DNA of 64,000 bases, from positions 3,732,001-3,796,000 of the forward strand of contig NZ_CP109487.1 of NCBI RefSeq assembly GCF_036227605.1. Direction: 5' to 3'. Positions 7,532 through 60,323 of the stretch are shown here, piece after piece; within the stretch, counting starts at the first letter, position 1, and every line of letters starts with the position of its first letter. Position numbers and translations under genes: made by a program. Origin of the DNA: Streptomyces sp. NBC_01439. Lineage in GTDB: Bacteria; Actinomycetota; Actinomycetes; Streptomycetales; Streptomycetaceae. The notes beneath the pieces were generated by a model. The model ran no database searches. It saw nothing but the letters and a program-made list of their open reading frames with translations, and was not told where the DNA came from.

Positions 7532-7546
7532 GGTCGCCGGGGCCGG

Positions 7547-29417: not shown

Positions 29418-29420
29418 CCG

Positions 29421-30098
29421 ATGCCGTTCCAGCACCCCGAGGAGATCGGCTACGGCTACGTGATCGAGCGCTACGCGGCGAGGAAGGACTCAAGCCACGC
29501 CCGCTACCTCGTCCTGAAAAGTGGTCGATTCCTGCGACCCGAGTGGCCTCACGCCGAACATTTCGCCCGTCACCTCATCGACGACTCGGCCACGATCACC
29601 GATGTTGAGCTGGAGGCCCTTCTCGGCTACGAGTGGCGCTCACGCCTCACCGCCGCCTGGCTGATCGGCGTAGGCCGACGCGCCACGTTCCGTGAACGCA
29701 TCGGCGACCTGCTCCTGGCCAGCGAGTTCTGCTTCTCCGGCAGCGCCTACTGCTTCGCCCTGGCCCGCTTCGGCACCCACGCGGACGCCGAGATCCTCAC
29801 CGCCTACCTCGACCACTACCTTCCCCGCACAGACCTCCGCTACGACCAGCCCGCCGCCTTGGGCGCCCTCCTCCGCCTCGACGCCCACCTCGGCACCAAC
29901 CACGCCGACCGCTTCACCCAGCCCGACGGCCTCTGGGACCAGTGGGTCAATGCCCTGGCCCACCTCCGCGACCACCCCGCCTACACCCCCGTCGAGCGTC
30001 GCCGCTGGACGGACCTCCAATGCGACTTCGCCAACGGCTGGTCCCGCTCCTCGCCCCCGAACCCGTCTCTCGACCGACCTGCAGACTCCGTGTCCTAG
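29421..30098 (+). CDS. DUF6000-like protein
   Basis: 225 residues, mostly alpha-helical. Landmarks are RYLVLKSGRFLRPEWPH, the phrase EALLGYEWRSRLTAAWLIG, then RERIGDLLLASEFCFSG and AEILTAYLDHYLPR. These match my memory of the Streptomyces DUF6000 family, whose role is unknown; related proteins sit near immunity-type genes. There is no signal or membrane helix. A decayed copy of its 3' end is seen at 35668-35710 inside the island, so this gene marks the chromosomal or oldest edge beside the insertion site. Confidence 0.7.
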   Translation: MPFQHPEEIGYGYVIERYAARKDSSHARYLVLKSGRFLRPEWPHAEHFARHLIDDSATITDVELEALLGYEWRSRLTAAWLIGVGRRATFRERIGDLLLASEFCFSGSAYCFALARFGTHADAEILTAYLDHYLPRTDLRYDQPAALGALLRLDAHLGTNHADRFTQPDGLWDQWVNALAHLRDHPAYTPVERRRWTDLQCDFANGWSRSSPPNPSLDRPADSVS

Positions 30099-30276: not shown

Positions 30277-30333
30277 CCGCTCCACCGCAGGTCAGGCGAC
30301 CTTTCGCCGAACGCATCGGACGTCGAAGCGGAA
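30277..30333. repeat. Left outer att-like repeat (displaced ychF tail)
   Basis: Matches 59196-59252 at 49 of 57 positions, including CCTTTCGCCGAACG and GAAGCGGAA. All eight differences are transitions. The part equivalent to the ychF stop has mutated (TTA to TCG on the + strand), as expected for a displaced, non-selected gene end. Confidence 0.8.
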
Positions 30334-30431
30334 TGCCTGCGGCGGAGCCCAGCAGACTGCCCCGACCAGGTGCTTCTCCGTTGGCGCGCATCGGGTCCCG
30401 ACGGTCGCTCACGGGTGTCATGCGGGCTGGC

Positions 30432-30725
30432 CTACGGGGTCTCGACGGAGTCGAGGTGCCGGCGCAGCTCCGTCGCGAGCTCTTCCTCGCCACCCTCGGA
30501 CGGCAGTGGCCAGGGATCCTGCTCTCCGTTCGCCACGGCAAGGCTGCTCGCGAACCGGACGAGGTGGGGTGCCCGGAATCCCGCCGGCGCCGCCCATCCG
30601 TCGCCCAGCTCTTGGAGCAGGTCGAGCGCCGCTTCCCACTCTTCGCGCGCCAGGTGGTCCCAGACGTCGGATACGGAGATGTCCCGGTCCGTGGCGGCAT
30701 CCTCGGGCACCAGCAAGGAGGCGGC
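30432..30725 (-). pseudogene. Mosaic of two gene relics
   Basis: Read leftward, 30725 to about 30565 encodes LLVPEDAATDRDISVSDVWD and DLLQELGDGWAAPAGF, a helical Streptomyces-type protein fragment. It is then fused to the tail SSLAVANGEQDPWPLPSEGG ending at 30432. The same tail ends the pseudogene at 32308, so this stretch is a truncated duplicate. The region between the repeat at 30277 and here shows no intact gene. Confidence 0.55.
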
Positions 30726-31228
30726 TTCGAGGACCTCGACCGCCTCCCCGAGGCACCCCGCCACACCGAGCTGATCGACGGAGCCCTCGTATTCATGCTG
30801 TCGCCCCAGCGGTCCTGGCATGGTCGCCTCGTCACCGCTCTGACCACCACCCTCATGGCGCAGGCGCCGGACGGCTTCGAGGTCGAGCGTGAGATGACGA
30901 TCCGCCTCGATGCCCGCAACCGGCTCGAGCCGGACCTCCTGCTGACGAACCTGGCCTATGACCCCGACCGCACCTGGTACGCCCTGGAGGACGTGAAGCT
31001 CGTCGTGGAGACGGTCTCACCCGAGTCCGCCCATCGCGATCGCACAGTAAAGCTCCGCAAGTACGCGGAGGCCGGTACCCCGCACTACTGGCGCATCGAG
31101 GAGTGCCCGTGGTCCACGTCTACGAGCTCGACGAACCCGCCGGCATCTTCCGCGGCACCCTCCAGCGCCCGGTGCCCTTCGAGATCAGCACGGACCTCGA
31201 CAAACTCACGCCACCCCGAAGCAGCTGA
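30726..31228 (+). pseudogene. Uma2-family endonuclease relic, copy 1
   Basis: In frame from EDLDRLPEAPRHTELIDGAL through LEPDLLLTNLAYDPDRTWY, DVKLVVETVSPESAHRDRT and EAGTPHYWRIEE. These are the PD-(D/E)XK-like Uma2 (DUF820) landmarks: the metal-site Asp in EPDLLL and Glu/Lys later. The N-terminal start found in copy 2 is missing. Near 31107 a small deletion shifts the frame: continuing in the next frame restores VVHVYELDEPAGIFRG and PFEISTDLDKLTP. It is therefore broken at both ends. Confidence 0.75.
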
Positions 31229-31230
31229 AA

Positions 31231-31292
31231 GTCAGCACCAAGTCAGTACGGGAGTACAGAAGGGGTCGGACTCGACAGAGTTCGACCCCTTC
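31231..31292. repeat. Cassette boundary A: conserved leader plus hairpin
   Basis: GTCAGCACCAAGTCAG followed by a hairpin with arms GAAGGGGTCGGACTC (31259-31273) and GAGTTCGACCCCTTC (31278-31292). The first 43 bases differ from boundary C at 34595 at only two positions. A ychF-tail relic follows 51 bases later. Confidence 0.8.
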
Positions 31293-31343
31293 CTACCTGC
31301 ATGCTTGGCGAAACCGACTAACTTGCAGCAATGAGACGACTAC

Positions 31344-31362
31344 ACGTTGAAGCGGAACTCGA
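31344..31362. repeat. ychF-tail relic 1
   Basis: ACGTTGAAGCGGAACTCGA, a 19-base exact match to the last codons of ychF at 59239-59257. It marks a former attachment-site junction. Confidence 0.8.
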
Positions 31363-31432
31363 GCGCAGAGCTGCGACCTGCGGAAACGTCGTTTCGGAGG
31401 GGCCTCTCCCAGCACCATCCCAGCACGGGCGG

Positions 31433-31687
31433 TCAGTAGTGATACCGAGCCGCGAGGATGATGACCTCCTTCTCCGTCACCAGGTAGACGAGGCGGTGCT
31501 CGTCGTCGATTCGCCGCGACCACGCGCCGGGCAGGTGGTACTTCAAGGGTTCGGGCTTGCCGATCCCTGAGAACGGGTCACGCCTGACGTCCTCGATGAG
31601 CTTGTTGATCCGGGCGAGCATCTTGCGGTCGTTCTTGAGCCAGGACGTGTAGTCCTCCCAGCCCTGATCCTCAAAGACAAGCCTCAC
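31433..31687 (-). CDS. yoeB: YoeB-family toxin (ribosome-dependent mRNA endonuclease)
   Basis: 84 residues, the same length as the characterised YoeB. The catalytic positions known for that family, Glu46, Arg65 and His83, are all present ([17 protein letters not shown] and the terminal RYHY), so the toxin should be active. It cleaves mRNA in the ribosomal A site. Its start overlaps the end of the antitoxin gene by four bases, the normal antitoxin-first order. The pair forms one cassette of the island, between ychF-tail relics at 31344 and 32167. Confidence 0.93.
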
Positions 31688-31965
31688 GCGGCACCCGCAC
31701 CCGCGTCCGCCGAGTCCGGATCAATCAGCTCGCGCTCCGACACGTTGATGCTCGCCAGGGCGTTCTCGTACGCCTTGAGCAGCCGGCGGGCGTTCGCCGG
31801 GGAGCGCAGCAGGTACGAGCCCTCGCGCAGCGCCGCGTAGTCCTCGGCCGAGACGAGCACGGCGTTGCCGTGCTTGGAGACGATCTCGATGGCCTCGTGA
31901 TTCTCGTTGACCTTCTTGATCAGCGGAAAGAGTTCCTTGCGGGCTTCGCTCGCGGTTATGGACAT
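31684..31965 (-). CDS. yefM: YefM/Phd-family antitoxin
   Basis: 93 residues. The N-terminal [19 protein letters not shown] and [20 protein letters not shown] are the Phd/YefM DNA-binding fold, and the C-terminal flexible part wraps the toxin. It is the first gene of the pair and should repress the operon through the palindrome at 31984-32007. The C-terminus is Ala/Asp-rich and a little longer than in E. coli YefM. Confidence 0.92.
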
Positions 31966-31983
31966 GGCCGACCTCTCCCCTCA

Positions 31984-32007
31984 AGTGGTACCTAATAACG
32001 TACCACT
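31984..32007. promoter_or_regulatory. Palindromic operator of the yefM-yoeB operon
   Basis: Perfect inverted repeat AGTGGTAC (31984-31991) and GTACCACT (32000-32007) with an 8-base spacer, 18 bases upstream of the yefM start. YefM-type antitoxins bind such sites for autoregulation. Confidence 0.75.
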
Positions 32008-32082
32008 CTCGACGTCCATCGGGCGGGTCAAATGGCTGACGGCTAGCCAGATTTCCCAGCACCATCCCAGCACGGGAAACAC

Positions 32083-32116
32083 GAAGGGGCCGACCCCTGG
32101 AGGAGTCGACCCCTTC
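32083..32116. repeat. Cassette boundary B hairpin
   Basis: Arms begin GAAGGGGCCGACCCC and end GGAGTCGACCCCTTC, with a CTGACCTGCAT tail as in the other boundaries. CCAGCACCATCCCAGCACGG precedes it. The arms are less perfect than in boundary C. Confidence 0.7.
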
Positions 32117-32166
32117 TGACCTGCATGTTTGACATGTCAGTGACGTGGTGTTACTTTATCCGCTCA

Positions 32167-32181
32167 GACGTTGAAGCGGAA
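32167..32181. repeat. ychF-tail relic 2
   Basis: GACGTTGAAGCGGAA, identical to 59238-59252. It is followed by the same kind of flank (CCTGACCTGCGGCGGAG) that follows the relic at 35437. Confidence 0.75.
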
Positions 32182-32307
32182 TGCCTGAAGCCTGGTCCTG
32201 ACCTGCGGCGGAGTCGCATTCAACACCCTGAACAGGCATCTCCGCGTTGGCTACATTGGGCTCCGACGGTCGCTTACGGGTGCCCCACGGACTCTCTGCG
32301 GACCGAC

Positions 32308-32732
32308 CTACAGGGTCTCGACGGAGGCGAGGTGCCTGCGCAGCCCCGCCGCGAGCTCCTCCTCGCCGCCCTCGGCCGGCAGTGGCCAGGGATCCTGCTC
32401 TCCGTTCGCCACGGCAAGGCTGCTCCGGAGCCACCGCGCGAAGACAGCGGCTTCGTCCGCGGTCACATCGGTCAATGTGATGTAGGCATGGTCGGGCTTG
32501 GGCATCGACGCCGTCCCGTCGATCCATACGCCCGACACCAGCTCGATCTCGAAATCAAGGACCGGCATACCGTGGATCCCGGAGATTCGATACTCCACCC
32601 GGAATCGGGGAAGGCCTCCCTCAGAGCCGTCTCCAAAGCCTCGGCAGTGGCACGCCACGCTCCATCATCTCCCTTGGGCGGGTAGAAGGCGAAGCTGGTG
32701 CGGATGTTCCGTTCAGTGGGCACGGTCTTCAA
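32308..32732 (-). pseudogene. Frameshifted small gene, immunity-like, unknown family
   Basis: Leftward from about 32732, one frame gives FAFYPPKGDDGAWRATAEAL and LREAFPDSGWSIE. The adjacent frame then takes over with YRISGIHGMPVLDFEIEL, DHAYITLTDVTADEAAVFAR and a tail ending ASVETL at 32308. The two halves read as one about 140-residue protein broken by a single-base shift near 32580-32600. Its 3' third is duplicated at 30432. No recognised family; the size and helical acidic character resemble immunity proteins. Confidence 0.55.
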
Positions 32733-32861
32733 TCAAGAGGCGCACAGGATCCAGTTCGGGCGCTCCCCCGTCTCTTTCGAGCATCCCGACGACGTCCATG
32801 CGCCCATTGTGGATCAGCTGCACACCCCCCTCGTGACGGCCGCAATCGCTAGGGTTGCCCA

Positions 32862-33362
32862 ATGACCGCGCTCCCCGACTGGATGCGCCCGCCGCGCGCG
32901 GAAGGCTGGTTCGCGGAGGACCTCGATCACCTCCCCGAGGCACCCCGCCACACCGAGCTGATCGACGGAGCCCTCGTCTTCATGACGTCGCCCCAGCGGT
33001 CCTGGCACGGCCGCCTCGTCACCGCCCTGACCACCACCCTCATGGCGCAGGCGTCGGACACCTTCGAGGCCGCCTCGATGCCCGCAACCGGCCCGAGCCG
33101 GACCTCCTGCTGACGAACCTGGCCTATGACCCAGACCGCACCTGGTACGACCTGGAGGACGTGAAGCTCGTCGTGGAGACGGTCTCACCCGAGTCCGCCC
33201 ATCGCGATCGCACAGTAAAGCTCCGCAAGTACGCGGAGGCCGGTACCCCGCACTACTGGTGCATCGAGGACGAGGGCGGGGCACCCGTGGTCCACGCACC
33301 CGCCGGCATCTTCCAGCGCCCGGTGCCCTTCGAGATCAGCGTGGACCTCGACAAACTCACGC
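32862..33362 (+). pseudogene. Uma2-family endonuclease relic, copy 2
   Basis: Starts with an intact ATG and MTALPDWMRPPRAEGWFAED, then closely matches copy 1 at 30726. Near 33073 it lacks 19 bases present in copy 1 (between TTCGAGG and CCTCGATGCCCG), which throws the frame and ends it at 33112. The correct reading resumes in the next frame as RPEPDLLLTNLAYDPDRTW to KLTPP. It is then joined to an antitoxin fragment. Confidence 0.8.
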
Positions 33363-33451
33363 CACCCTGGCGGAGGTCGTGGAGCGGGCCGATCGCGACA
33401 ATGTGCCCGCGGTGATCAAGCGCCGGGGCAAGGCAGTCGCCACCTTCAGTA
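33363..33451 (+). pseudogene. YefM/Phd antitoxin fragment
   Basis: Encodes TLAEVVERADRDNVPAVIKR then RGKAVATFSNAA, nearly identical to residues 15-47 of the intact antitoxin at 34774 (HLAEVVERADRDDVPTVITR). Both ends and its toxin are gone. It shows that another toxin-antitoxin cassette once stood here. Confidence 0.75.
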
Positions 33452-33913
33452 ACGCGGCATGTTCGGGATCGCCTTCTCCGCGAGCTCGACGAGCGCCTCC
33501 ACCTTCGCCAAGTCGGCCGTGACCTCCTCCGGCGTCACGGCGGGGGCCTCCGACGACCGGTACTCGACTTCGTTTCGCCGGGCTCGCATGCGGTTGAAAG
33601 GACGCAGCATGGAACCGAGTGGCGGGTCGAGCTGCGCCCGCACAGCCTCGTAGATGACGGTATGGCCGCCACGACTGGTCGCACGCAGTCCCTGGTTCTG
33701 CAATACCGCGGCTAGCGCTCTACGCGCGGCGTCGTAGGCCAGCGTGTACGCACCCTCCGGGTCCGTGGCCGCCAACTGCCGCGCGGAGCCGACATGGGTA
33801 CGCGCCCGGACCAGTTCCGCTTCGGCCGCCTCCCGAGAAGCGGGGACTCGCTCAAGTCCGCCACCGGCGATGAGCGCGTCAACCGTCGACCGCCCTTGAT
33901 TCCAGCGCGTCAT
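33446..33913 (-). CDS. HEPN-domain protein of a HEPN-MNT pair
   Basis: 155 residues from the ATG at 33913, overlapping the MNT stop as ATGA. It is an all-helical HEPN domain: GAYTLAYDAARRALAAVLQN, a central TSRGGHTVIYEAV segment and MRARRNEVEYRS, an RN-x2-EY variant of the usual R-x4-6-H motif. It resembles the SAV_6107-like HEPN group. In HEPN-MNT systems the HEPN member is the toxin (RNase) and MNT neutralises it. The changed motif means catalytic activity is uncertain. Confidence 0.8.
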   Translation of the reverse strand: MTRWNQGRSTVDALIAGGGLERVPASREAAEAELVRARTHVGSARQLAATDPEGAYTLAYDAARRALAAVLQNQGLRATSRGGHTVIYEAVRAQLDPPLGSMLRPFNRMRARRNEVEYRSSEAPAVTPEEVTADLAKVEALVELAEKAIPNMPRY

Positions 33914-34500
33914 TGCGCCTCCAAGTCGGGATTCAGCTGTACCAGAGGACGTTCGCGAACGCTGGTGAGGAACGGATCGTCCGTACGGGCCTCCCACGAC
34001 TCGACGGAGACCCGATGAACGTTGACCTCACGACGCAAGCGCCGTGAAGCCTCCTCGGCCAGGTCGAAGAGCGCGTCGGCATCGGGGGCACCCACAACGA
34101 GGACATCCACATCGGCAGGCGGCAGCCCCGGCTCACCGTTGTACCGAGCGGCCCACGAGCCATAGATATAGGCGCGCTCCACGCCTTCGAGTCCGGCGAG
34201 CGCATCGGTGAGCACGGGCACGGGGCCGAAGGAGACGGCCATGAGCTCGCTCAGCGGACGGTACAGCGGAGTATCCGTGCGGGCCTTGACGAGGCGACTG
34301 CGCCCCACTCGCCGATCGGCCAGGATTCCACCGCCTGCCAACCGGTCAACCTCCCGCAGGACAGCAGTGGGCGTCACGCCGACCTCGGCCGCGAGCTCAG
34401 TGATGCTGTACTCGCGGTCCGGGTGCAGGAGCACCAGCGCGAGGAGCTCGCCTTGCATGCGAGACCGGAGGATGGGAAGCAGGCTTGGCGATACTTTCAT
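33910..34500 (-). CDS. HTH-nucleotidyltransferase (MNT) antitoxin of a HEPN-MNT pair
   Basis: 196 residues from the ATG at 34500. An N-terminal winged helix (about 1-75; EYSITELAAEVGVTPTAVLR) is fused to a minimal nucleotidyltransferase with YIYGSWAARYNG and PADVDVLVVG, the GS...DxD catalytic signature. It can act as antitoxin by AMPylating or binding HEPN, and as an autorepressor through its HTH. The 42-bp palindrome at 34492-34533 covers the start codon, fitting that role. Confidence 0.85.
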   Translation of the reverse strand: MKVSPSLLPILRSRMQGELLALVLLHPDREYSITELAAEVGVTPTAVLREVDRLAGGGILADRRVGRSRLVKARTDTPLYRPLSELMAVSFGPVPVLTDALAGLEGVERAYIYGSWAARYNGEPGLPPADVDVLVVGAPDADALFDLAEEASRRLRREVNVHRVSVESWEARTDDPFLTSVRERPLVQLNPDLEAQ

Positions 34501-34533
34501 TGGACGCAGGATATCAAGCGCCCAATGAAAGTA
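34492..34533. promoter_or_regulatory. 42-bp palindromic operator of the HEPN-MNT operon
   Basis: Perfect 12-base arms TACTTTCATTGG and CCAATGAAAGTA, centred exactly on GATATC (34510-34515), with partial symmetry between. It overlaps the MNT start codon, so binding would block transcription or translation initiation. Confidence 0.75.
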
Positions 34534-34594
34534 ACAATCTGCACCCGCACGCTCACCGGCGCGCTCATTGGCGCCTACCGCGAGGCGCCCCCAG

Positions 34595-34656
34595 GTCAGC
34601 ACCAAGTCAGCACGGGAATACAGAAGGGGTCGGACTCCCTGGAGTCCGACCCCTTC
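34595..34656. repeat. Cassette boundary C: conserved leader plus perfect hairpin
   Basis: GTCAGCACCAAGTCAGCACG, then arms GAAGGGGTCGGACTCC (34623-34638) and GGAGTCCGACCCCTTC (34641-34656), a perfect 16-bp stem, then TGACCTGCA. The ychF-tail relic expected after it is decayed (around 34680-34700). Confidence 0.85.
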
Positions 34657-34738
34657 TGACCTGCACGCTTGATGAAACTATCCAACGTGCAGCACGCGCA
34701 GCTGCAACGGAGGAGGCCCACCCTCCACCCCTATCTGT

Positions 34739-34748
34739 TGTGTACACA
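34739..34748. promoter_or_regulatory. Probable operator of the yefM-relE operon
   Basis: Palindrome TGTGTACACA about 25 bases before the antitoxin start. The TGTACA core is the known recognition element of YefM-type antitoxins. Confidence 0.55.
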
Positions 34749-34773
34749 TGGGACACTCGGTACCCTTGGGTGC

Positions 34774-35043
34774 ATGACACAGCCGCTGCCCATAGAGTCC
34801 ATCCGCGACGTGCGTGCGCATTTGGCGGAGGTCGTGGAGCGCGCCGATCGCGACGACGTGCCCACCGTGATCACGCGCCGCGGCAAGGAAGTCGCCGCCG
34901 TCGTCTCCATCGAGGTACTGCGCAAGTACCAGGAGTGGGAAGAGCGCGAGATCAATCGGATCATCGACGAGCGCATGGCCAACCCCGCACCCGGCATCCC
35001 GATCGAGGACATCATGAGGGAGACGCTGGCGCGCGGTGAGTGA
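34774..35043 (+). CDS. YefM/Phd-family antitoxin
   Basis: 89 residues from the ATG at 34774 (MTQPLPIESIRDVRAHLAEV). The Phd fold is evident in RDDVPTVITRRGKEVAAVVS and the helix EVLRKYQEWEEREINRII. The toxin gene starts inside its last codons (8-base overlap). It should bind the toxin and repress through the TGTGTACACA palindrome. It is only distantly similar to the YefM protein at 31684, so the two pairs arrived independently. Confidence 0.88.
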   Translation: MTQPLPIESIRDVRAHLAEVVERADRDDVPTVITRRGKEVAAVVSIEVLRKYQEWEEREINRIIDERMANPAPGIPIEDIMRETLARGE

Positions 35044-35272
35044 GTACCGAACCGTCTTCCGCCCCGAGGCGCAGGCCGAGCTTCGGAAGATCCCGCGCGA
35101 GATGGCGCTGCGCATCCTGGCCAAGCTGACCGAGCTGGAAAGCGATCCGCTCGGCTTCAACACCACCGCACTCGTGTCCCAGCCAGACCGCCGGCGGCTA
35201 CGGATTGGCGACTACCGCGTCGTCTACACGATCGGCAACGGGGAACTGGTGGTCGGGGTCGTTCACGTGTGA
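35036..35272 (+). CDS. RelE/ParE-family toxin
   Basis: 78 residues from a GTG. MSEYRTVFRPEAQAELRKIP, a helix, then RRLRIGDYRVVYTIGNGELV is the RelE fold with the conserved Arg-rich strand. It lacks the YoeB-type terminal His, so the exact cleavage chemistry may differ. It overlaps its antitoxin gene. The stop is followed within about 80 bases by cassette boundary D. Confidence 0.88.
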   Translation: MSEYRTVFRPEAQAELRKIPREMALRILAKLTELESDPLGFNTTALVSQPDRRRLRIGDYRVVYTIGNGELVVGVVHV

Positions 35273-35352
35273 CACCGGTCCACCGTTTACGACACCTGAC
35301 CACCGCTGACCATACGTCAGAATATCCAGCACCCATCCAGCACGGTGACGGC

Positions 35353-35386
35353 GAAGGGGTCGAACTCGACAGAGTCCGACCCCTTC
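35353..35386. repeat. Cassette boundary D hairpin
   Basis: Arms GAAGGGGTCGAACTC (35353-35367) and GAGTCCGACCCCTTC (35372-35386), preceded by ATCCAGCACGG and followed by TGAGCTGC. It has the same layout as boundaries A to C. Confidence 0.75.
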
Positions 35387-35436
35387 TGAGCTGCGCGTTT
35401 GACCCAATGCCTCACGTGCAGTAAGAGAACGACTAC

Positions 35437-35450
35437 ACGTTGAAGCGGAA
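35437..35450. repeat. ychF-tail relic 3
   Basis: ACGTTGAAGCGGAA, identical to 59239-59252, 50 bases after hairpin D. The right flank (CCTGACCTGCGGCGGAGCC) matches those of the relics at 30319 and 32167. Confidence 0.75.
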
Positions 35451-35667
35451 TGTCTGCCACCCAATCCTGACCTGCGGCGGAGCCCCGCCCAGGGCCCTGA
35501 CCTGGGATTTCCTCGTTGGCTGCGTTGGCTCCCGACGGCTGTTTACGGGTGTCCTGCGGACTGGCTGCGGACTGGCCGGGTACGCCGAGGCAGAGAAATC
35601 CATGGCACACAGGCGGGACATGCGACCAGCACAGCCGGCGGTACGTCCGCCCGCTGGCCAAGGACGC

Positions 35668-35710
35668 GCCGCTGGATAGACCTCCACTGCGACCTCGCCA
35701 GCATTTGGTC
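35668..35710 (+). pseudogene. Fragment of a DUF6000-like gene 3' end
   Basis: Matches 30001-30043 at 35 of 43 positions (GCCGCTGGA, GACCTCCA, TCGCCA shared). It is a short decayed copy of the chromosomal DUF6000 gene at 29421, now inside the island. Confidence 0.6.
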
Positions 35711-35827
35711 CATCCGTGGCCACGCCTCTCCCCCGTCCAGCGGTGCTTGAGTGCTAGCAGCCTCGCCCTGGACTTCAGAGGGCCTTACCCGCCAGCCCCT
35801 CCAGCAGCATTGCCCGATTGATTCAAA

Positions 35828-45462: not shown

Positions 45463-47160
45463 TCAGCGGTGTCGACTGTGGTCTTCGGGCCTCGTGGCCA
45501 CTGGTGTGAGCAGCGGATGCTGCGGGGCAGACCTGGCCGAGGTGCCGCTGATGGTGCTTTGCCTGCGAGCGGCTTGCGCCCGCCGGTTCGGTTGAGCGGT
45601 GATGCGCCAGTTGAGGACCTCGGCGGGGTGCTCGGCGCTGTCGAGCTCTCGTTGAGTGCCCACCTCGGTCAGGAGACGACGGGAGCTGTGGCCGGCGGTC
45701 TCGGCGTGGGCGAGGGTTGTGGTCAGGGCGGTCCAAGCGGGGTCGGCGAGGATCCGGTCAGCGTGGTCGGGGAGGGTCGCGCGAACGTCCTGCTCGAAGC
45801 GACGGACAGTTGCGGCTCGTGGTGCGCGGCGGGTCAGGTCAGCCAAGACGGGTGTGGCGGCCTGCTGGTAGCCCGCCTGGAAGTGGCGGAGGGCTTCTTC
45901 GGCCGCAGCGGCCTGCTGTTCGTGGCCGCGCTGCTCGTGCCACTTGGCGGCGGCGCGGGCCAGGTGCAGGGTGGCGAAGAGCAGGGCGATGGCGAGTCCG
46001 CCCGGCTCGGTGGAGGCGTAGGCGAGTTCCTTGGCGGCCTTGCGCAGGGCGGTGGCGGCCTGGTGGTCGGCGCGGGTGGCGGAGCGGCGGGCGCGGTTGA
46101 ACGCCGTCGCCGCCGCCCGTAGTTCCGCCCGGTGTGGGCCGGTCGTGGCGCTTGCGATGTTGTACAGGGCGTCGCCGAAGGCGGCCAGGTGGCCCTGGGC
46201 GGCGGCATCGTCGCCGGAGTCGAGGACGGTGCGTGCCACCTGTATGGCGGTGGTGGTGTGACGCCATGGGTCGGCGGGGTCCGCCGCATACCGCGGGCGG
46301 TCGGCTACCTCCTGGTCAAGGAGGCGTTCGCGTAGGCGGTTGATGGAGAGGTCGGGGGCGAGTTTCGAGCCGCCGTACCAGACGGGCTCGTCGGCCGCGT
46401 TGGTGTCGCCAGGTGCGGCGAGGCTGTAGCCGATCACGTCGCCGGTCTCGGGGCCGAGGCGTGTTTTGACCTTGATGCCGAGGGACTGCAGCACGGTGAA
46501 GTAGTCGGCTTCATTGCGTACGGCGGCGGCGACCGCGTAGGCCTGCTCGCGCAGCCACTGCCGTGCCGTGGCCGTCTGGCCCTGGCGCTCGGCCTTGGCA
46601 CGTTCGGCGCCGGTGGGAGTGCGGGGCGCGGTGAGGTCGCCGGACTTCAGGCGGCGCAGACCGAACTCGGCTTCGATCTTGCGGCACTCGGCTTGGGCCC
46701 GCTGTCCGTCGTGGTGGGTGCGCGGGCGGCGTCCGTCGGCGCGGACGGTGGTGGCCATGATGTGGATGTGGTCGTCAGCGTGGCGTACCGCGATCCACCG
46801 GCATGCCTTCTCGTCACCTTCGGGGGCGATGCCGGCAGCGTGAACGATGCGGCGGGCGACCTCGGCCCACTCGGCGTCGGTGAGGTAGCGGTCGCCGGGC
46901 GCGGTACGGACCGGACAGTGCCAGACGTGCCGAGGCGGCTTCTTACCGCCCAGCTCGCGGGTGCGCAGGTCGACGTGGTGGTCGAGGCGCTTGGCGAGGA
47001 GGGTGTAGCTGGCCTCGGGGTCGCGGCCAGGGTCGGGGGCGCCGACCACGTCCCAGGCGGCGACGATGTGCGGGTCGGTGTGTTCGTCGCGGCGGCCGGC
47101 GCCGAAGAGGTAGACGATCAGTCCGCGGGTGTTGGAGCCGGTAGAGACGTCAGGAACCAT
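45463..47160 (-). CDS. MOB-type relaxase (MobA/VirD2-like)
   Basis: 565 residues. The HUH metal site is RHADDHIHIM (H127, H131 and H133), preceded by a HVWHCPV strand and followed by TTVRADGRRPRTH. A catalytic tyrosine in the N-terminal part is plausible but not certain. The remaining 350 residues are long helices. It would nick an origin of transfer and lead the strand into a recipient. Its start overlaps mobC by 11 bases. No conjugation pore or TraB/FtsK translocase is nearby, so the element is mobilisable rather than self-transmissible. Confidence 0.85.
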   Translation of the reverse strand: MVPDVSTGSNTRGLIVYLFGAGRRDEHTDPHIVAAWDVVGAPDPGRDPEASYTLLAKRLDHHVDLRTRELGGKKPPRHVWHCPVRTAPGDRYLTDAEWAEVARRIVHAAGIAPEGDEKACRWIAVRHADDHIHIMATTVRADGRRPRTHHDGQRAQAECRKIEAEFGLRRLKSGDLTAPRTPTGAERAKAERQGQTATARQWLREQAYAVAAAVRNEADYFTVLQSLGIKVKTRLGPETGDVIGYSLAAPGDTNAADEPVWYGGSKLAPDLSINRLRERLLDQEVADRPRYAADPADPWRHTTTAIQVARTVLDSGDDAAAQGHLAAFGDALYNIASATTGPHRAELRAAATAFNRARRSATRADHQAATALRKAAKELAYASTEPGGLAIALLFATLHLARAAAKWHEQRGHEQQAAAAEEALRHFQAGYQQAATPVLADLTRRAPRAATVRRFEQDVRATLPDHADRILADPAWTALTTTLAHAETAGHSSRRLLTEVGTQRELDSAEHPAEVLNWRITAQPNRRAQAARRQSTISGTSARSAPQHPLLTPVATRPEDHSRHR

Positions 47161-48040: not shown

Positions 48041-49708
48041 TCAGCGAGTGAGCCTGGGGCCGGCAGGCCCGCCAGGCGGACCGATGGGCAGCGTTCCGGA
48101 TGGAGGGGCCGGTGGCTTGCCCGAGGCTCGACGTGCGGGCACGGCCTCCTCGGCTGTGGGCACAGGTGGGGCGGGGTCGGGGCAGTACCGGGCCCAGGCG
48201 TCGGGGAACTGATTACGGGCGTACGCCTTCGCCTGCCTGCCGTTCTCGAAACGGTGGTTGGCCGGACTGATGCCGAAGTCGCGGAGCAGGTTGGCCAGGT
48301 GGTAGGCGTTCAGGCCCTTCGTCCCGTACTCGGCCCAGGGCGCCTCCGCGTCCTGGACGAGGGCGGCGAGCAGGTCGTGGCTGCGCAGCGCCTCCTTGTC
48401 GCCCTGTTGCTCGAAGACGCGGCGGATGTCCCGGAGCAGCCGGGTCTTCAGTGTCGTCTGCTCGTCCTGGACCACCTCGTTCCGGGTCATCGCCAGGCAG
48501 GCGGCACGGGCATGGGCGGGCCAGTGGCCGCCGGCCAGGTCGGCGACGATGACCAAGGGCTCCCAGGTGTCTGCGGCCCGGTCTTCGACCGGCATAGGTG
48601 GCACCAGCCGGTGCGCTGCCCCGCGCAGTGGGGTCAGCCACGCGGCCAGCCGGTCGCGCAGGGCGTTCAGTTCCGGGACGGAGTGCCGGGAGCGGAAGGG
48701 AGCGACCTTCTCGCCGGGCTTGCGTTTCTGCATGCGGAGCACGACGGCGCGGTCCATGATCGTGTCCGGAAGGTCGCCGATGCCTGCCAGCGCAGCCATG
48801 GCGAAAGTCGGGAACGCGGTCGGCTTGTGCTCCGGGCCGAAGATCCGCCACGCGGGGCGGTTGCGCTGGTGTCCGGCGTTCAGCAGGCCACGGAGGTCCT
48901 CCTTGTCCCCGGCCTTGGGGCCGAAGATGGTGTCGGCCTCGTCCACCAGTAGCGTCGGCGGGTCCTCGCCGATGATCCGGAAGATCACCGCCGGCGAGGT
49001 GTTCACCGTCATCATCGGTCGGGACACGGTCTCGTGGAGCACGTCCAGGACACGCGACTTGCCGCAGCCCTTGGTCGGCCCCACCACCGCCAGGCGCGGA
49101 GCGTGCTGGAGGGCGGGCTGAATGTGGGAGGCCGCCACCCACAGGGTGACCGCAGTCAGTGCCTCCTCGCTCGGCAGTACGACGTACCGGCCGATCGCGG
49201 CGCGCAGCTCGTCCAGTACGACGGTCCCGTCCTGGTCCCAATCCGCCTTGAGGCCAGCGCGCTCCCGGTCCCCAGTCCCCGGTCCGGGTTCCGGGACCAT
49301 CCCAGCAGCACCGTGGTCAACCCCGACCGACGGTCCGGGTTCGACAAGCGACTGACCGGAACTCTCCGCCCGGTCCCCAGCATCTGGTCCGGCCCCATCC
49401 GGACCGGACGGGTGGTCCGGGTTGTTGGTCCGGTCCGGTAGGCCGCTGAGCTGTGCGTTCTCCGCCGGTCCGGGTTCCTGGTCCGGGTTGTCCGGAACTC
49501 CGGTCCGGGTTTCGGTCGCGGGTCGGTCCGGTTCCGGACCGACCGGACCAGCGGCACGGTCCGGTCGATCGCCGGTCCCCGAAGAGGTGGACCGGACGTT
49601 TGCTCGGTCCGGACCGCGCCACGGGATGCCCTGGCCGGGGACCGCGACCGGCGGCCAACCGCCTGCAGCGGAAGCGGTCGACAGGATGGGGGAGGAGGTG
49701 TCCTCCAT
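48041..49708 (-). CDS. DUF3631-type ATPase/helicase of an integrative element
   Basis: 555 residues from the ATG at 49708, with AAGGA nearby. The first 150 residues are Pro/Asp/Gly-rich and disordered. The ATPase domain has Walker A VVGPTKGCGKSR and Walker B LLVDEADTIFGPK, followed by the DUF3631 region (MDRAVVLRMQKRKPGEKV). Such proteins accompany integrases in actinobacterial elements and probably unwind or replicate element DNA. It follows the excisionase-like gene in one leftward unit. Confidence 0.85.
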   Translation of the reverse strand: MEDTSSPILSTASAAGGWPPVAVPGQGIPWRGPDRANVRSTSSGTGDRPDRAAGPVGPEPDRPATETRTGVPDNPDQEPGPAENAQLSGLPDRTNNPDHPSGPDGAGPDAGDRAESSGQSLVEPGPSVGVDHGAAGMVPEPGPGTGDRERAGLKADWDQDGTVVLDELRAAIGRYVVLPSEEALTAVTLWVAASHIQPALQHAPRLAVVGPTKGCGKSRVLDVLHETVSRPMMTVNTSPAVIFRIIGEDPPTLLVDEADTIFGPKAGDKEDLRGLLNAGHQRNRPAWRIFGPEHKPTAFPTFAMAALAGIGDLPDTIMDRAVVLRMQKRKPGEKVAPFRSRHSVPELNALRDRLAAWLTPLRGAAHRLVPPMPVEDRAADTWEPLVIVADLAGGHWPAHARAACLAMTRNEVVQDEQTTLKTRLLRDIRRVFEQQGDKEALRSHDLLAALVQDAEAPWAEYGTKGLNAYHLANLLRDFGISPANHRFENGRQAKAYARNQFPDAWARYCPDPAPPVPTAEEAVPARRASGKPPAPPSGTLPIGPPGGPAGPRLTR

Positions 49709-49811
49709 AGGCGTTCCTTTCTGGCGAGGGGCGGAGCGGGACCTGGTCCGCCTTCTCGTCGGTTGGTCGTTCAGCGGTGGGTGGAGGGCCCCGGCAGCTT
49801 CGGGTCTGTGG

Positions 49812-50006
49812 CTACGCGGCCAGACCCCACTCGTCCTGGCCATCGATCAGCGCTCGCTCGTACCGCAGCAGCTCGGCCTCGGGGTACAGCACCCGCTTCC
49901 CGACCTTGATGCCGCGCGGCCCCTTCCTGATGTGGCGCCAGTAGCGGACGGTGCTCTCGGCCGTGCGGTAGCGCTCGGCGACCTCGGCGGTGGTCAGGTA
50001 TCGCAT
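49812..50006 (-). CDS. Excisionase-like helix-turn-helix protein (AlpA/MerR type)
   Basis: 64 residues, MRYLTTAEVAERYRTAESTV then a recognition helix and wing (KVGKRVLYPEAELLRYERAL). This is the HTH_17/AlpA arrangement of recombination directionality factors. Placed between the DUF3631 gene and the divergent XRE regulator/integrase genes, it likely controls excision. Confidence 0.85.
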   Translation of the reverse strand: MRYLTTAEVAERYRTAESTVRYWRHIRKGPRGIKVGKRVLYPEAELLRYERALIDGQDEWGLAA

Positions 50007-51775: not shown

Positions 51776-51818
51776 CGGCTGCCCCGGCTGACCAAAGTCA
51801 GCACGCTGCCAACTCGGT

Positions 51819-51855
51819 GCGGACCGTGAAGGCCGCCCGACCTGCTCCGCTGCAG
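51819..51855. repeat. 37-bp direct repeat left of the R-M operon
   Basis: GCGGACCGTGAAGGCCGCCC followed by GACCTGCTCCGCTGCAG. It matches 59173-59209 at 32 of 37 positions, with all five differences transitions. It lies between the integrase and hsdR. Confidence 0.85.
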
Positions 51856-51898: not shown

Positions 51899-54838
51899 CT
51901 AGTAGTACTCCCGGATGTATCCCAGCGCCCTCCCGAAGACATCCTGGTCGCGGATCTTGAACTTGATGTAGAGCGCCTTGCGAAGTGCCTGCTGGACAAG
52001 GCGATCGCCTTCGTTGGTGTCCTGCCAGCCGACAAAGCGGACGGTACGGACGACGGAGTCGACCTCGTCGACAACCTTCTCGGCGATGATCGGGGTCTCC
52101 TCGCCCTTGAGTGACTCGAAGAGCTCTGTCAAGGCAGCCTTTCCGCGCTCCTCGCGGGGCACCTCAGCGGCAGCCTTCTCCGCTGCGACCGTGTCTCGCG
52201 CGAGTGCGAAGAGCTCCTTGAGAAACTCCAGCGAGGCCTGCTGAGAGTGGGAGTACTTCTCCCGCAGAGCATTCAACCGCTGGCCAAGCTCGATGAAGGC
52301 CGGGTTGCCGACATGCTTGGCAATGCGGACGGTGATCCACTTCTCGACCTCGACAGGGTCGATGTCTTTGCGGTTACCGTTCATCAGGTCCTCGATGACC
52401 TGCGCATCGAGGACGATGGTCTCCAGGTCGGTGCGCGGGACCTCGACGGTGACGTGCTCGTTTATGAGCTCAAGGGTCTTGGCACCCAGCGTGTGCCAGA
52501 CCAGCCGGCCGGTGACGTCGGTGGGTTGCACGGACTGGTATACGTCGGTCAGCCACCGGTATTCCGACTCGCGCTCGGACAGGATCGGGTCCGGGGACAG
52601 GGTCTCCCACAGCTGGGCGACGACGCTGTACGCAGCTCCGAAGGCGTCACGGGACTCGTCAGAGTCGATCGCAGTCTGTGCCTGGATCAAGCCCTCATAA
52701 CCGCCGACGGTGCGGTCGACGCCCGGGAAGAACGCCAGAGCAGCCTCAATCGCGGGTCCGAGCTGCTCGCGGAGTACAGCAATGTTGGAGATGACCTGCT
52801 GGACGGACTTGTCGTCGAACTCGAAGGCCTTGGCGACGTCGTCGAAAATGCCGAGGTAGTCCACTATGAGGCCGTGGGTCTTCGCGGGCGGGTAGACCCG
52901 ATTCGTGCGGCAGATTGCTTGGAGCAGGGTGTGCTCGTACAGGGGCTTGTCAATGTACTGGGCATAGAGGATCGGGGCATCGAAGCCGGTGAGCAGCTTC
53001 GCGGTCACAATGATGATCTTCAACGGGTCCGCCGGGTCGTTGAAGCGGGCGGTGATTCGCTCCAGCTCCTCCCGACCAGGTGTCCAATGCTTCCACGTTG
53101 GCTTGTCACCTCGGCTGGTGGACATCACGATCGTGGACGTGTCCGGGCCGAGCAGGCGGTCAAGCTCTTCCTTGTACGCCACGCAGGTGGCCTTGTCGTA
53201 GACCACGACCTGCGCCTTGAAGCCCTGCGGCTCGACCTTCGTGGTGAAGTGCCCGGCGATGTCGGCGGCGATCTTGCGGACCCGGTCGGGGGCTTTGATC
53301 AGCACCTCCAGGGAGGCGGCCTTCTTCGACAGGGTGGTGCGGTCTTCCTCATTGAGCCCGTGACGGTCGGCGAGCTCGGCGAAGGCCGCGTCGATCGACT
53401 CCTCATCCAGGTGGATCTCCGAAAGGCGCGGCTCGAAGTGCAGCGGCAGGGTGGCGCCGTCGCGGATGGAGTCGGAGAAGGAGTAACGCGAGAGATACCC
53501 GTGCTCGTCGGCCTCGCCTCCGAACCACATGAACGTGTTGCGGTCACGCTTGTTGATCGGCGTCCCGGTCAGCCCGAACAGGAACGCGTTGGGCAGCGCC
53601 TCGCGCATCTTGCGGCCGTAGTCGCCCTCCTGGGAGCGGTGGGCCTCGTCGACCATCACGATGATGTTGTCGCGCGCGTCCAACACGCCCGGGGCCTCGC
53701 CGAACTTGTGGATCGTGGTGATGATGATCTTCCGCGCGCCCGCAGCCAGGAGCTCCTGCAGCTCCTTGCGGGACTCCGTTGAGACGAGGTTCGGTACGTC
53801 CGAGGCGTTGAACGTCGCGGTGATCTGGGTGTCCAGGTCGATCCGGTCGACCACGATGATCACCGTCGGCGAGGTTAGCCCCGCCGTTGCGCGCAACTTC
53901 TGCGCAGTGAACACCATCAGCAGCGACTTCCCCGACCCCTGGAAGTGCCAGATCAGCCCTTGCTTGATCTGCCCGTGCAGCACCCGCTCCACGATCAGGT
54001 TGGTCGCCTGGAGCTGCTGGTACCTCGCGATCACCTTGATCTTGCGGTGCTTCTTGTCGGTCGCGAACAGAGTGAAGAACCACAGGAAATCCAAGATCGC
54101 GTCCGGATCCAGAACGCCCTCGACCGCCTCCTTGACCGCCGAGAGGCCTACCTTCACCGGCGTATGGTCGTCACCGGACTCATCCGCCCGCCACGGCCCC
54201 CACAGCTCCACCGGCATCCCGACCGAGCCGTAGCGGAAGTCCTTGCCCTCGGTGGCGAAGTTGAGCACGTTCGGCACGAAGAACGCCGGCACGTTGACCT
54301 CGTAGTCCTCCTTGACCTGCGCGGCAGCGTCGATCCAGGAGTACGCCGGCCGCACCGGCGACTTCGCCTCCCCCACGACTAGAGGGAACCCGTTGCACCA
54401 GATCACCAGGTCGAAGCGCCTCTCCAGTCGCCCGGCCCCGTAGGGCACCTCGGTGGAGACGGTCCAGTCGTTCGCGCTGCGCTCGCCGGGGTGGTCGAAG
54501 TCGATCAGCTTGACAGTCACATGCTCGCCGTCGGGCCCGAAGGGCATCGACTTCTGCCCCGTGAGCCACGCCGCGAACTCCTCGTTCGCCACCACCGGAT
54601 TCGGTGTGTTGCGCGCGGAAACCAGGATCGCGCGCAGCCGGTAGATCACCTCAGCGGCCAGACGCGGATCCGCCTCGATGGTCGGGTTGAGGCGGATTAA
54701 CGCCTCCCGCACCTGCTGCTCCAGCAACACCTCACTGGTGCGGCGCGGCAGCTGACTCCCCGGCACGAACCGCACATCGACCGACTCCACCAGATCCCGG
54801 ACGAAGTCCCGGACGCTATTGGCTTCGTTGAAGGTCAT
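51899..54838 (-). CDS. hsdR: Type I restriction endonuclease subunit R
   Basis: 979 residues from the ATG at 54838, overlapping the hsdS stop as ATGA. The N-terminal nuclease domain has D143 in RFDLVIWCNG and E157-x-K159 in GEAKSP. The motor domain has Walker A GSGKS (301-305), DEAH box (397-400), LFGLTGTPINKRD and a C-terminal lobe with TGFDAP and QAICRTNR. It cleaves unmodified DNA after translocation when bound to the M and S subunits. Length and motifs are those of a complete HsdR. Confidence 0.94.
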   Translation of the reverse strand: MTFNEANSVRDFVRDLVESVDVRFVPGSQLPRRTSEVLLEQQVREALIRLNPTIEADPRLAAEVIYRLRAILVSARNTPNPVVANEEFAAWLTGQKSMPFGPDGEHVTVKLIDFDHPGERSANDWTVSTEVPYGAGRLERRFDLVIWCNGFPLVVGEAKSPVRPAYSWIDAAAQVKEDYEVNVPAFFVPNVLNFATEGKDFRYGSVGMPVELWGPWRADESGDDHTPVKVGLSAVKEAVEGVLDPDAILDFLWFFTLFATDKKHRKIKVIARYQQLQATNLIVERVLHGQIKQGLIWHFQGSGKSLLMVFTAQKLRATAGLTSPTVIIVVDRIDLDTQITATFNASDVPNLVSTESRKELQELLAAGARKIIITTIHKFGEAPGVLDARDNIIVMVDEAHRSQEGDYGRKMREALPNAFLFGLTGTPINKRDRNTFMWFGGEADEHGYLSRYSFSDSIRDGATLPLHFEPRLSEIHLDEESIDAAFAELADRHGLNEEDRTTLSKKAASLEVLIKAPDRVRKIAADIAGHFTTKVEPQGFKAQVVVYDKATCVAYKEELDRLLGPDTSTIVMSTSRGDKPTWKHWTPGREELERITARFNDPADPLKIIIVTAKLLTGFDAPILYAQYIDKPLYEHTLLQAICRTNRVYPPAKTHGLIVDYLGIFDDVAKAFEFDDKSVQQVISNIAVLREQLGPAIEAALAFFPGVDRTVGGYEGLIQAQTAIDSDESRDAFGAAYSVVAQLWETLSPDPILSERESEYRWLTDVYQSVQPTDVTGRLVWHTLGAKTLELINEHVTVEVPRTDLETIVLDAQVIEDLMNGNRKDIDPVEVEKWITVRIAKHVGNPAFIELGQRLNALREKYSHSQQASLEFLKELFALARDTVAAEKAAAEVPREERGKAALTELFESLKGEETPIIAEKVVDEVDSVVRTVRFVGWQDTNEGDRLVQQALRKALYIKFKIRDQDVFGRALGYIREYY

Positions 54839-56010
54839 TTGACACCTCCAAAGATTTCGGAGGTGACAGTCTGCTTGAGAGTGGACACAGTTCGCGCCTC
54901 GTGCGCGACCGAATCCATCGCGCGGGTCCAACTCGCTACTTCCGCAACGATCTCGGCCTGAACGTCCTCCGACGGGAACGGCAGGGGGTAATCCTCGATG
55001 TGGCGCCAATGCATGTGCTTCACCTTCGACCCCTCGCTCCTGCGCGCGACCCAAGCCGAGAAGGCAGGAGTTCGAAGCGCAATATGCAGAAACTCCGGCG
55101 TGATTCCTTGCACCGGCGTCAAGCGACCGATTCGCTGATTCAGAAATGCCGCATCGTGCATCCGACACACACGCCCGAGAAAACGATCCTCGAGGGACTG
55201 AGCAGTCATATTGATCACTAGGTCACCAGGGGACAGTGAGCAGTCAGCATTTTCCTCTGTGAACGATGCAGGGATTCGCACGGATGAATCGGTCCACTGT
55301 GTGCGCCCGTTCGGCTTCATGTCACCAGGGCGAAGCAGCGCAACGCCTACATCTCCATAAAGATTACTCGGCACGGGTCGCCCGTGCTGCAAGCGGACGA
55401 TCTCACCGAGATGGCGGGTAGTCTGTCCCGAAAGCTTTTTCTCGAGCCACGACTCGTAGGCGAGTCCAAGCGACGCAGCAAGTACACCCCGACTATTTTG
55501 ATGGGCCTCCACGGACCACATAAGGTCCGCGAAGCGTTTCTGCTCATCCAGTGGCGGGAGGGCGAACTCGTAGCGCTGCATCTGGCCCCAGAGCAGGCGC
55601 GGGTTCATCGAACCGGTCGCCTCGGCGGTCGCGTAGGCGATGAAATGGTCGGAGGCAAGAAGGAAGGGAAGAAATTCCTGCAGCAGTCCATTCTCGGGGG
55701 CGGCGTCGAGGACGTAGGTCTTGTCGGCGACGACGCCCGAAAAATTCACGATGCCGGACTTGCGAAGGTAGGGACGTGCCGAGACGAAGAGGATCTGGCC
55801 GGGCTGGAAGAGGTAGGTAAAGGTCGAGCCCATCTGGCCGTCGTTGACGTCGCCGAATCGCTCGATGGCAAGGCTGTCGCTGTCGATGTGCCCGCCGCCG
55901 ACGTAACGGTCGATATCGACGCTGCCCGGGGTGACCTGGGTACGGGAGCGTCGGATGACGTCGCCGAGTCGTACTCGCTTCCAGGTGGTCTTGCAGAGGT
56001 TGAGGCTCAT
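54835..56010 (-). CDS. hsdS: Type I R-M specificity subunit S
   Basis: 391 residues with two target-recognition domains. The first ends near MQRYEFALPPLDEQKRFADL and the second at WRHIEDYPLPFPSEDVQAEI, each followed by a conserved coiled-coil helix (DEQ.RFADLMWSVEAHQN and VAEVASWTRAMDSV). It sets the two-part DNA target of the enzyme. The TRD sequences are unlike each other, as expected for a bipartite site. It overlaps hsdR and hsdM by four bases each. Confidence 0.9.
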   Translation of the reverse strand: MSLNLCKTTWKRVRLGDVIRRSRTQVTPGSVDIDRYVGGGHIDSDSLAIERFGDVNDGQMGSTFTYLFQPGQILFVSARPYLRKSGIVNFSGVVADKTYVLDAAPENGLLQEFLPFLLASDHFIAYATAEATGSMNPRLLWGQMQRYEFALPPLDEQKRFADLMWSVEAHQNSRGVLAASLGLAYESWLEKKLSGQTTRHLGEIVRLQHGRPVPSNLYGDVGVALLRPGDMKPNGRTQWTDSSVRIPASFTEENADCSLSPGDLVINMTAQSLEDRFLGRVCRMHDAAFLNQRIGRLTPVQGITPEFLHIALRTPAFSAWVARRSEGSKVKHMHWRHIEDYPLPFPSEDVQAEIVAEVASWTRAMDSVAHEARTVSTLKQTVTSEIFGGVK

Positions 56011-59172: not shown

Positions 59173-59195
59173 GCGGACCGCGAAGGCCGCCCAAC

Positions 59196-59209: not shown

Positions 59210-60323
<1,114 letters not shown>

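Follow-up and report, generated by a model that had tools for sequence, protein, structure and literature searches.

What built the row of small gene modules that stands beyond the end of ychF in Streptomyces sp. NBC_01439? The DNA analysed here, called the window throughout, is a stretch of 64,000 nucleotides of contig NZ_CP109487.1, and an earlier note on its sequence had described in it four boundaries with a shared hairpin, three of them followed by a copy of the ychF tail, with single modules in between. The boundaries were recovered as a family of 76-nt direct repeats (D2) at 31233, 32057, 34597 and 35327; the copy at 34597 served as the reference, and the other three were 72-86% identical to it. 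The three tail copies (31344, 32168 and 35437) proved exact over 14 bases, and two further copies had been missed, one at 30320 with one mismatch, the other at 59239, the genuine 3' end of ychF. The Uma2, YefM-YoeB, HEPN-MNT and YefM-RelE/ParE modules were present as described. Since ychF lies on the minus strand at 59235-60323, everything between about 30277 and 59235 follows immediately on its 3' end, and the genuine tail makes copy number five. The array is larger than the earlier note had it. When up to two mismatches were allowed, the window gave five matches to the 14-base tail against 0.24 expected, and none of 100 shuffles reached five. The pattern ACGTYGAAGCGGAA was found exactly five times in the whole genome of 9,578,283 bases, always in the window and on one strand, and the reversed pattern gave no match. 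With one mismatch allowed, there were 31 extra scattered matches on both strands, versus 12 for the reversed pattern. A hairpin query matched only the locus on the ychF side in this genome. A dispersed cassette elsewhere in the genome was ruled out for the exact core and for the hairpin, and the 31 one-mismatch cores elsewhere were not examined singly. The ychF stop codon is outside the 14-base repeat, on the side of the element. We read these repeats as putative attachment-site (att) cores of elements that integrate at the ychF 3' end, and we consider it highly probable that integrative elements, together with derivatives that lack an integrase, are stacked here in tandem, each inserted at this core by a tyrosine integrase.

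Two tyrosine integrases, here named IntG and IntH, have the same ychF core alongside and are 24% identical to each other. They were found in comparisons with other Streptomyces, among them a panel of 392 genomes, one per species; genomes and loci are cited below by G and L labels. IntG was reached through the DNA downstream of ychF in relatives, Pfam analysis of the large minus-strand open reading frames (ORFs) of the window having shown no integrase. In three other species (L073, L074 and L124, the last being S. narbonensis), genes of its family end 84-108 bp from the ychF stop codon; a fragment is left in L075 and a broken copy in L084. In L073 there is an 11.93-kb core-to-core element with ends of the class here called G-type, and the IntG element of the window carries integrase and relaxase. 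A search for tyrosine-integrase motifs in ORFs of at least 80 amino acids downstream of ychF returned IntG-family genes only, within the stretches then covered.

The source of IntH was a hairpin-plus-core locus of genome G157, where the gene for a 426-amino-acid integrase lies next to the distal core. The stretch concerned is about 55 kb long and has ychF, with a hairpin of its own, at the opposite end. This element is a prophage, as it holds an integrase (1.3e-53) and head, packaging and tail genes, i.e., major head (3.3e-65), terminase (3.3e-82) and tape measure (2e-164), between two cores, one at C81:130286 and one at ychF (126000-183000 covered). Relatives of IntH at E <= 1e-60 were detected in 40 of the 392 genomes. 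Among 30 loci inspected, of 46 matches listed, 14 had the exact core past the 3' end of the integrase gene, about 90-165 bp away and always on its strand, and in 13 of these 14 at least two GTGCTG-type repeats lay between gene and core. The positions of both integrases bear out the suggestion of serial insertion, with the boundaries as left-over ends of successive integrative elements. The added idea that these elements had lost their integrases holds for the integrase-less units but fails for the array as a whole, since an intact IntG gene, overlooked in the earlier note, stands in it. Two IntH homologues (L201 in G295 and L202 in G248) had an in-frame TAG within the match, each beside the core variant TTCCGCTTCAATGT. 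No relative at least 60% identical was found among the 1017 phage records matching IntH or the 2364 matching IntG (best-ranked 32.6% and 34.4%, respectively), nor among the best 5000 plasmid matches of IntG (best-ranked 36.2%).

The sequence directly before the distal core fell into two main classes of left end, LE-H and LE-G. LE-H is marked by a series of GTGCTG repeats, to which some of the IntH loci add the inner block CGTTTCCGCAGGT or a variant close to it; the class was also observed at the small units of L100, L120, L137, L087, L088 and L095 and at 31344 in the window. LE-G contains the block GGCTCCGCCGCAGGTCAGG and was found at the IntG elements of L073 and L074 and at the window cores 35437 and 32168, with a similar but shortened end at 30320. 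The left-end classes are thus common to integrase-bearing elements and small units. Right ends of H type have a conserved hairpin, some 65 nt beyond the core, and two flanking GTGCTG repeats, and the repeats at the IntH ends are the 'leader' of the earlier note. In lambda-type attP sites, such repeats are placed on both sides of a short core; as the GTGCTG repeats have this same placement, they can be read by analogy as putative integrase arm sites.

The hairpin was analysed in 46 non-redundant right ends, out of 67 picked by their flanking motifs. A 4-nt loop was present in all 46, starting 59-68 nt after the core, and the 13-bp stem covaries: most positions have several kinds of pair, and 96.3% of stem cells were paired, versus 83.6% after shuffling (maximum 86.0), a comparison that ignores relatedness and is favoured by the choice of the best-pairing stem position in each sequence. 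Matches to the hairpin occurred in 154 genomes, and in 43 of 49 loci examined among them (29 plus 20) a core was within 200 bp, versus 17 of 567 control windows. A hairpin unlinked to ychF was therefore rejected. The six loci with no core in this range are L053, L057, L058, L061, L070 and L191; by eye, the first four adjoin Uma2-like sequence and L191 looks unrelated. Copies of hairpin plus core with no ychF found alongside were seen at G368:C1:4809588 (L173) and G343:C1:29531 (L175), the former about 904 kb from the ychF-adjacent copy of its genome, which points to a chromosomal rearrangement or an insertion at a second place.

Next to these ends, the content of the small units was analysed. 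Tandem loci had been chosen for having several tails or hairpins, and the counts of core-to-core intervals are thus not from a random sample; the interval script dropped 15 loci as duplicates, two of them (L048 and L052) with no named duplicate. Seven of 44 intervals measured 824-857 bp, all scored as H right/H left, in seven genomes, six of the units lying outside the window. Five contain YefM-RelE (L100, L120, L095, L137 and L087) and two YefM-YoeB (the window and L088), and the two toxin-antitoxin types are oppositely oriented. The 824-bp unit of the window (31344-32181) has an H right and an H left end, two cores and YefM-YoeB as sole content, with no integration or transfer genes. Other single-module units were MNT-HEPN of 1396 bp (L113, H/H) and Uma2 of 874 bp (L049, arms plus H left end). 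VapBC units, with VapB and PIN assigned by Pfam, were found in L082 (ends unclassified) and L093 (G left end). The units of L079 and L075 encode a 130-amino-acid protein with no Pfam match, and a PIN label for this family was dropped for want of Pfam support, the VapB/PIN matches being those of L082 and L093. Moreover, units that are internal in the window stand first after ychF elsewhere, with homology from the core: RelE in L137, L115 and L060, YoeB in L088 and L081, and Uma2 in L080 and L083. By gene positions, both orders were found for RelE/YoeB, RelE/Uma2 and YoeB/Uma2; YoeB precedes Uma2 in the window and L075 only, and in L075 YoeB has the other orientation.

Some distant pairs of units are more similar than their ychF genes. 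From core to core, the YoeB units of the window and G051 are 91.4% identical (ychF 87.2%), and the RelE unit of the window is 91.9% identical to that of L137 (ychF 87.4%) and 91.3% to that of L115 (ychF 88.8%). Codon changes in intact units were mostly synonymous in YoeB (9 vs 2 non-synonymous) and in the RelE-linked YefM (10 vs 1). The RelE family was found in 78 of the 392 genomes. Loci from 75 of these were inspected (G112, G198 and G278 left out), with flanks of varying length and after four loci were dropped whose genomes were already present with longer flanks; a core within 600 bp was in the expected orientation at 46 of the 75 and in the opposite orientation at none.

The site was followed in 20 stretches from other Streptomyces and 80 loci representing the best ychF matches, which are not a random sample. 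Directly after ychF, the 80 loci showed H-type ends with arms in 22, the hairpin with no arm pair in 19, G-type ends in 6 and arms alone in 1, the other 32 having none of these, and 12 of the 80 had a second core within the 10 kb or less covered. In 99 loci, the commonest downstream gene clusters were RelE (22), its YefM (19), a chromosomal gntR (18) and Uma2 (15); YoeB and its YefM, with 10 loci each, ranked behind several unidentified clusters. In the 18 loci with gntR, this gene lies between about 0.1 kb and 45.2 kb past ychF. The latter is the window, whose gntR (GntR/UTRA) is 74-87% similar to the genes of two near-empty sites, L106 and L112, where a hairpin with a T-run lies at about +50 after ychF and gntR begins 86 and 85 bp, respectively, beyond the stop codon of ychF. 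Given these near-empty sites, the H-type hairpin of the elements most likely supplies the ychF terminator. The record of L112 is titled Streptosporangium nondiastaticum, and its ychF is 92% identical to that of the window and its ychF-gntR order is that of S. roseoverticillatus; the label may be wrong. In L078 (G013; oriented stretch 3074-13257), four large genes (714, 443, 925 and 1309 amino acids) stand beside a core copy, possibly a multi-gene defence system by size and order.

These observations suggest how such a stack could grow. Each insertion would rebuild the ychF tail and leave a fresh site for the next element, the GTGCTG repeats serving as integrase arm sites, and the hairpin would end ychF transcription and insulate ychF from convergent cargo. 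Small units may derive from IntH or IntG elements by deletion, and would move, singly or along with a neighbouring element, when an integrase of either type recombines the two cores of a unit. Toxin-antitoxin pairs would be retained because a cell pays for losing them, and their share is likely due to addiction genes resisting deletion once an element has lost its integrase; the alternative is selection for phage defence, which predicts resistance phenotypes. Taken one step further, Streptomyces might possess a cassette system for toxin-antitoxin or defence modules down to 0.82 kb that lie between complete phage-integrase arms. Integrases supplied in trans from incoming temperate phages or integrative and mobilizable elements (IMEs) would excise these modules and insert them at the ychF tail, so that hosts share and reorder them across species, and every step would restore the ychF stop codon and terminator. 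We offer this extension tentatively, as a possibility somewhat short of probable.

Several results weigh against the stack as we read it, or against movement of its units. Unit identity exceeded ychF identity in just 3 of 13 distinct genomes for RelE and 2 of 9 for YoeB (alignments over 500 bp), and in L072 (S. avidinii) the YoeB unit is 90.5% identical and ychF 97.3%. A search for a precise insertion pair among sister species, made with the window and L072, gave none; with one genome per species, neither an excision circle nor a precise strain-level presence/absence pair was seen. RelE showed four synonymous and four non-synonymous changes (one pair counted), and 29 of the 75 RelE-family loci had no core within 600 bp, many of these showing no ychF in the stretch covered. 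The genome of the window has no IntH homologue at E <= 1e-60, 16 of the 30 IntH-family loci had no exact core alongside, and in 6 of the 14 core-bearing ones (L214, L215, L217, L218, L221 and L224) another block lies beside the core. A run of at least four T follows the hairpin in just 12 of 46 right ends, so the terminator role is one that we infer. Homologous recombination between repeated ends could likewise permute units. At the 34595 boundary, homology to RelE units of other species ends at 24521 and that of the next unit begins at about 24567 (counted from 59258 downwards), and thus a core and its neighbourhood were probably lost there. This loss, the mixed H-right/G-left ends and the restriction-modification genes that split the IntG right end, all attributable to decay and recombination between repeated ends, imply that part of the stack has decayed or been rearranged.

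These signs of wear, together with the partly deleted Uma2 copy and the lower similarity of most unit pairs compared with ychF, would suit an account of ordinary decay only, in which the units are dead relics of larger elements and their order changed by deletions and homologous recombination between repeated ends. We regard this account as quite conceivable, though not as the expected outcome: it has to accommodate seven toxin-antitoxin units, spread over seven genomes, that are nearly equal in length and have both H ends complete, a prevalence of synonymous changes for two of the three genes counted, unit identity above that of ychF for some distant pairs, and both orders for all three module pairs compared. 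A true integron or a relative of one, with an IntI-type integrase, attI and attC hairpins capturing toxin-antitoxin cassettes, would also give single-module units in permuted order at one site, a hairpin per H-type boundary and entry beside one fixed gene, and in this organisation the earlier description as integron-like was apt. In kind it was not, as the boundaries resemble att sites of phage or IME type with arm repeats. Against integron-integrase models the window integrase scored 72 bits with a cut-off of 265 and 48 with a cut-off of 435, and for both integrases the best match is to phrog_1 integrases. What recurs as the core is part of the host gene ychF, flanked by repeats on either side, and the hairpin is outside it, its loop 59-68 nt away rather than in a shared 14-bp junction; attC cassettes differ from units bounded by two cores plus long arms. 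On integrase scores and site architecture, with no attI or attC model applied, the integron was rejected, and we hold it to be very improbable. Just as improbable is the reading in which the hairpin is only the native terminator of ychF and the repeats arise from tandem duplication of the ychF downstream region, with no mobile elements. The terminator-like hairpins of L106 and L112 agree with it, as do the hairpin-type right ends so common after ychF, but the duplication is contradicted by the integrase-bearing elements: the same core and the same ends are found with integrases, pairs of cores enclose an 11.93-kb element and a prophage, IntG-family right ends have no H-type hairpin, and the two left-end classes match the two integrases. 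Of this reading, the terminator role of the hairpin alone survives.

We return to the tandem stack of integrative elements to describe its order in the window, with the coordinates collected in Table 1. Outward from ychF, core 59239 and a G-type right end are followed by type I restriction-modification genes, a core-less G-type right end, IntG, DUF3631, the relaxase and further cargo. Then come a G-type left end with core 35437, an H-type right end, RelE/YefM, a core-less H-type right end, MNT/HEPN and Uma2 copy b. Beyond the G-type left end with core 32168 are an H-type right end, YoeB/YefM and an H-type left end with core 31344, and finally an H-like right end, Uma2 copy a, a G-like left end with core 30320, a G-type right end and DUF6000. 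The window also holds restriction-modification and candidate-defence genes. The two Uma2 copies (30902-31102 and 33070-33270) share 201 nt at 98%, a sign of recent duplication within the stack, and 35600-35740 appears by eye to be what a deletion left of the CPCC-DUF6000 module found at about 29000-30100. The IntG element carries as cargo an NsdA-family regulator (2.3e-104) and an Sll1717-type ATPase (4.7e-35), at 38878-41232 and 35828-37159 (minus strand), respectively. At 28694-28777, a tandem C/G-rich repeat (CCCCGCG units, family D7) is inside the upstream part of a CRP-like ORF as listed.

Table 1. Features of the ychF-side stack in the window, from ychF outward.
Feature	Coordinates	Strand	Evidence or remark
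ychF with stop codon	59235..60323	-	Target gene, 3' end the putative attachment site; Pfam YchF-GTPase_C 8.5e-39; best named relatives 98% identical
Core 0, true ychF tail	59239..59252	+	ACGTTGAAGCGGAA; in ychF sense TTCCGCTTCAACGT
G-type right end next to ychF, no H-kind hairpin	59140..59238	.	Closely similar to right ends of IntG elements L073, L074, L124
Type I restriction-modification genes (R, S, two M) between two G-type right ends	51899..59194	-	Pfam/PADLOC
Second G-type right end, core-less, directly after integrase	51776..51855	.	Window alignments with L124, L073, L074 begin at base 49 of their stretches
IntG, intact tyrosine integrase, 372 amino acids	50657..51775	+	PF00589 1.8e-23; family near ychF in L073, L074, L124
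DUF3631 protein of IntG element	48041..49843	-	PF12307 2.7e-73
MobA/VirD2-like relaxase of IntG element	45463..47160	-	PF03432 9.3e-10
G-type left end of IntG element	35451..35580	.	Sequence class of L073, L074 left ends
Core copy	35437..35450	+	
H-type right end	35327..35436	.	Arm-like repeats 35327-35345, hairpin 35353-35388
YefM (ORF 34669-35043) and RelE/ParE toxin (35036-35272)	34669..35272	+	Pfam PhdYeFM_antitox 6.9e-13, ParE_toxin 1.8e-10
H-type right end, no core	34597..34672	.	Hairpin 34621-34658
HEPN (33446-33997) and MNT (33910-34605) pair	33446..34605	-	PADLOC PDC-M05A 1.8e-53, PDC-M05B 1.8e-14; Pfam matches below cut-off; same unit beside ychF in L113
Uma2 copy b, partly deleted	32855..33415	+	PF05685 4.9e-12
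G-type left end	32182..32310	.	
Core copy, right-hand limit of complete 824-bp YoeB unit	32168..32181	+	
H-type right end	32057..32167	.	Hairpin 32083-32118, arm-like repeats 32057-32073
YefM (31684-31965) and YoeB (31433-31687), intact	31433..31965	-	Pfam YoeB_toxin 1.2e-40, PhdYeFM 8.7e-14
H-type left end with arm-like repeats CCCAGCACCATCCCAGCACGGG	31358..31432	.	Same class as IntH loci
Core copy, left-hand limit of 824-bp YoeB unit	31344..31357	+	
H-like right end, hairpin 31257-31292	31233..31343	.	One deviant repeat; scored by script as hairpin with no arm pair
Uma2 copy a	30333..31334	+	PF05685 9.6e-21
G-like left end, shortened near core	30334..30430	.	Classed by eye, unclassified by script
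Core copy, one mismatch	30320..30333	+	
G-type right end of most distal recognised unit	30277..30319	.	
DUF6000 protein of distal unit	29421..30098	+	PF19463 7.1e-77

At the end of this highly conserved gene, two unrelated integrases converge on one chromosomal site. If the units move, they give a concrete answer to how small chromosomal toxin-antitoxin pairs travel and accumulate with neither transposase nor integron, and, were this true, phage integrases would be shuffling enzymes for addiction and defence modules shared across Streptomyces species. The 824-bp unit of the window is complete and small enough for a direct plasmid assay, and IntG and IntH would be new integration tools for Streptomyces.

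Chromosomal integrons are likewise stores of single-module cassettes, toxin-antitoxin pairs included, at one locus; unlike them, the ychF locus yielded no IntI, and its sites are phage-type and double-ended. We know of no att-bounded units smaller than the 0.82-kb toxin-antitoxin units. A literature search, judged mainly from titles and abstract openings of the papers listed and with subscription journals outside its scope, found no report of a ychF attachment site in Streptomyces, nor a paper joining ychF, integrase, Streptomyces and attachment site. The pneumococcal prophage PPH005 has its attB between a DUF951 gene and ychF (PMC8637289), and is thus like the stack in being a prophage insertion in the ychF neighbourhood; it differs in attB sequence and organism, and the part of that report considered here mentions neither a tandem stack nor toxin-antitoxin units. 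Closer in host is PAISt of Streptomyces turgidiscabies, which has a tyrosine integrase, the 3' end of bacA as its site, several att copies and modular excision shown by nested polymerase chain reaction (PMC4057263). It shares with the ychF stack the genus, the integrase type, the use of a gene 3' end and the several att copies, and differs in its 8-bp palindromic core, modules of 105-674 kb and bacA as target. The closest parallel is found in cis-mobilizable elements (CIMEs), integrase-less segments that keep attL and attR and are stacked with elements whose distantly related integrases share a target, as in the ICESt1 type; they form by tandem accretion, in which a new element enters the att site that holds the gene end (PMC5704250). 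The 824-bp unit keeps both att ends with no integration or transfer genes, an IntG element is in the same stack, and IntG and IntH elements occur at the same core elsewhere, so that here too integrase-less, att-bounded segments lie beside distantly related integrases of the same target. Different from the accounts given there are the ychF target in Streptomyces, the lineages involved (a prophage and a relaxase-bearing element), the single toxin-antitoxin pair in about 0.83 kb, the permutation of units between species and the H-type hairpin. In our reading, the ychF stack is a case of this known tandem accretion, in which the CIME-like units are very small. The minimal toxin-antitoxin units take the pattern further: given how small and complete they are, and how they are permuted from species to species, it is a real possibility that integrases of phages or IMEs move them in trans.

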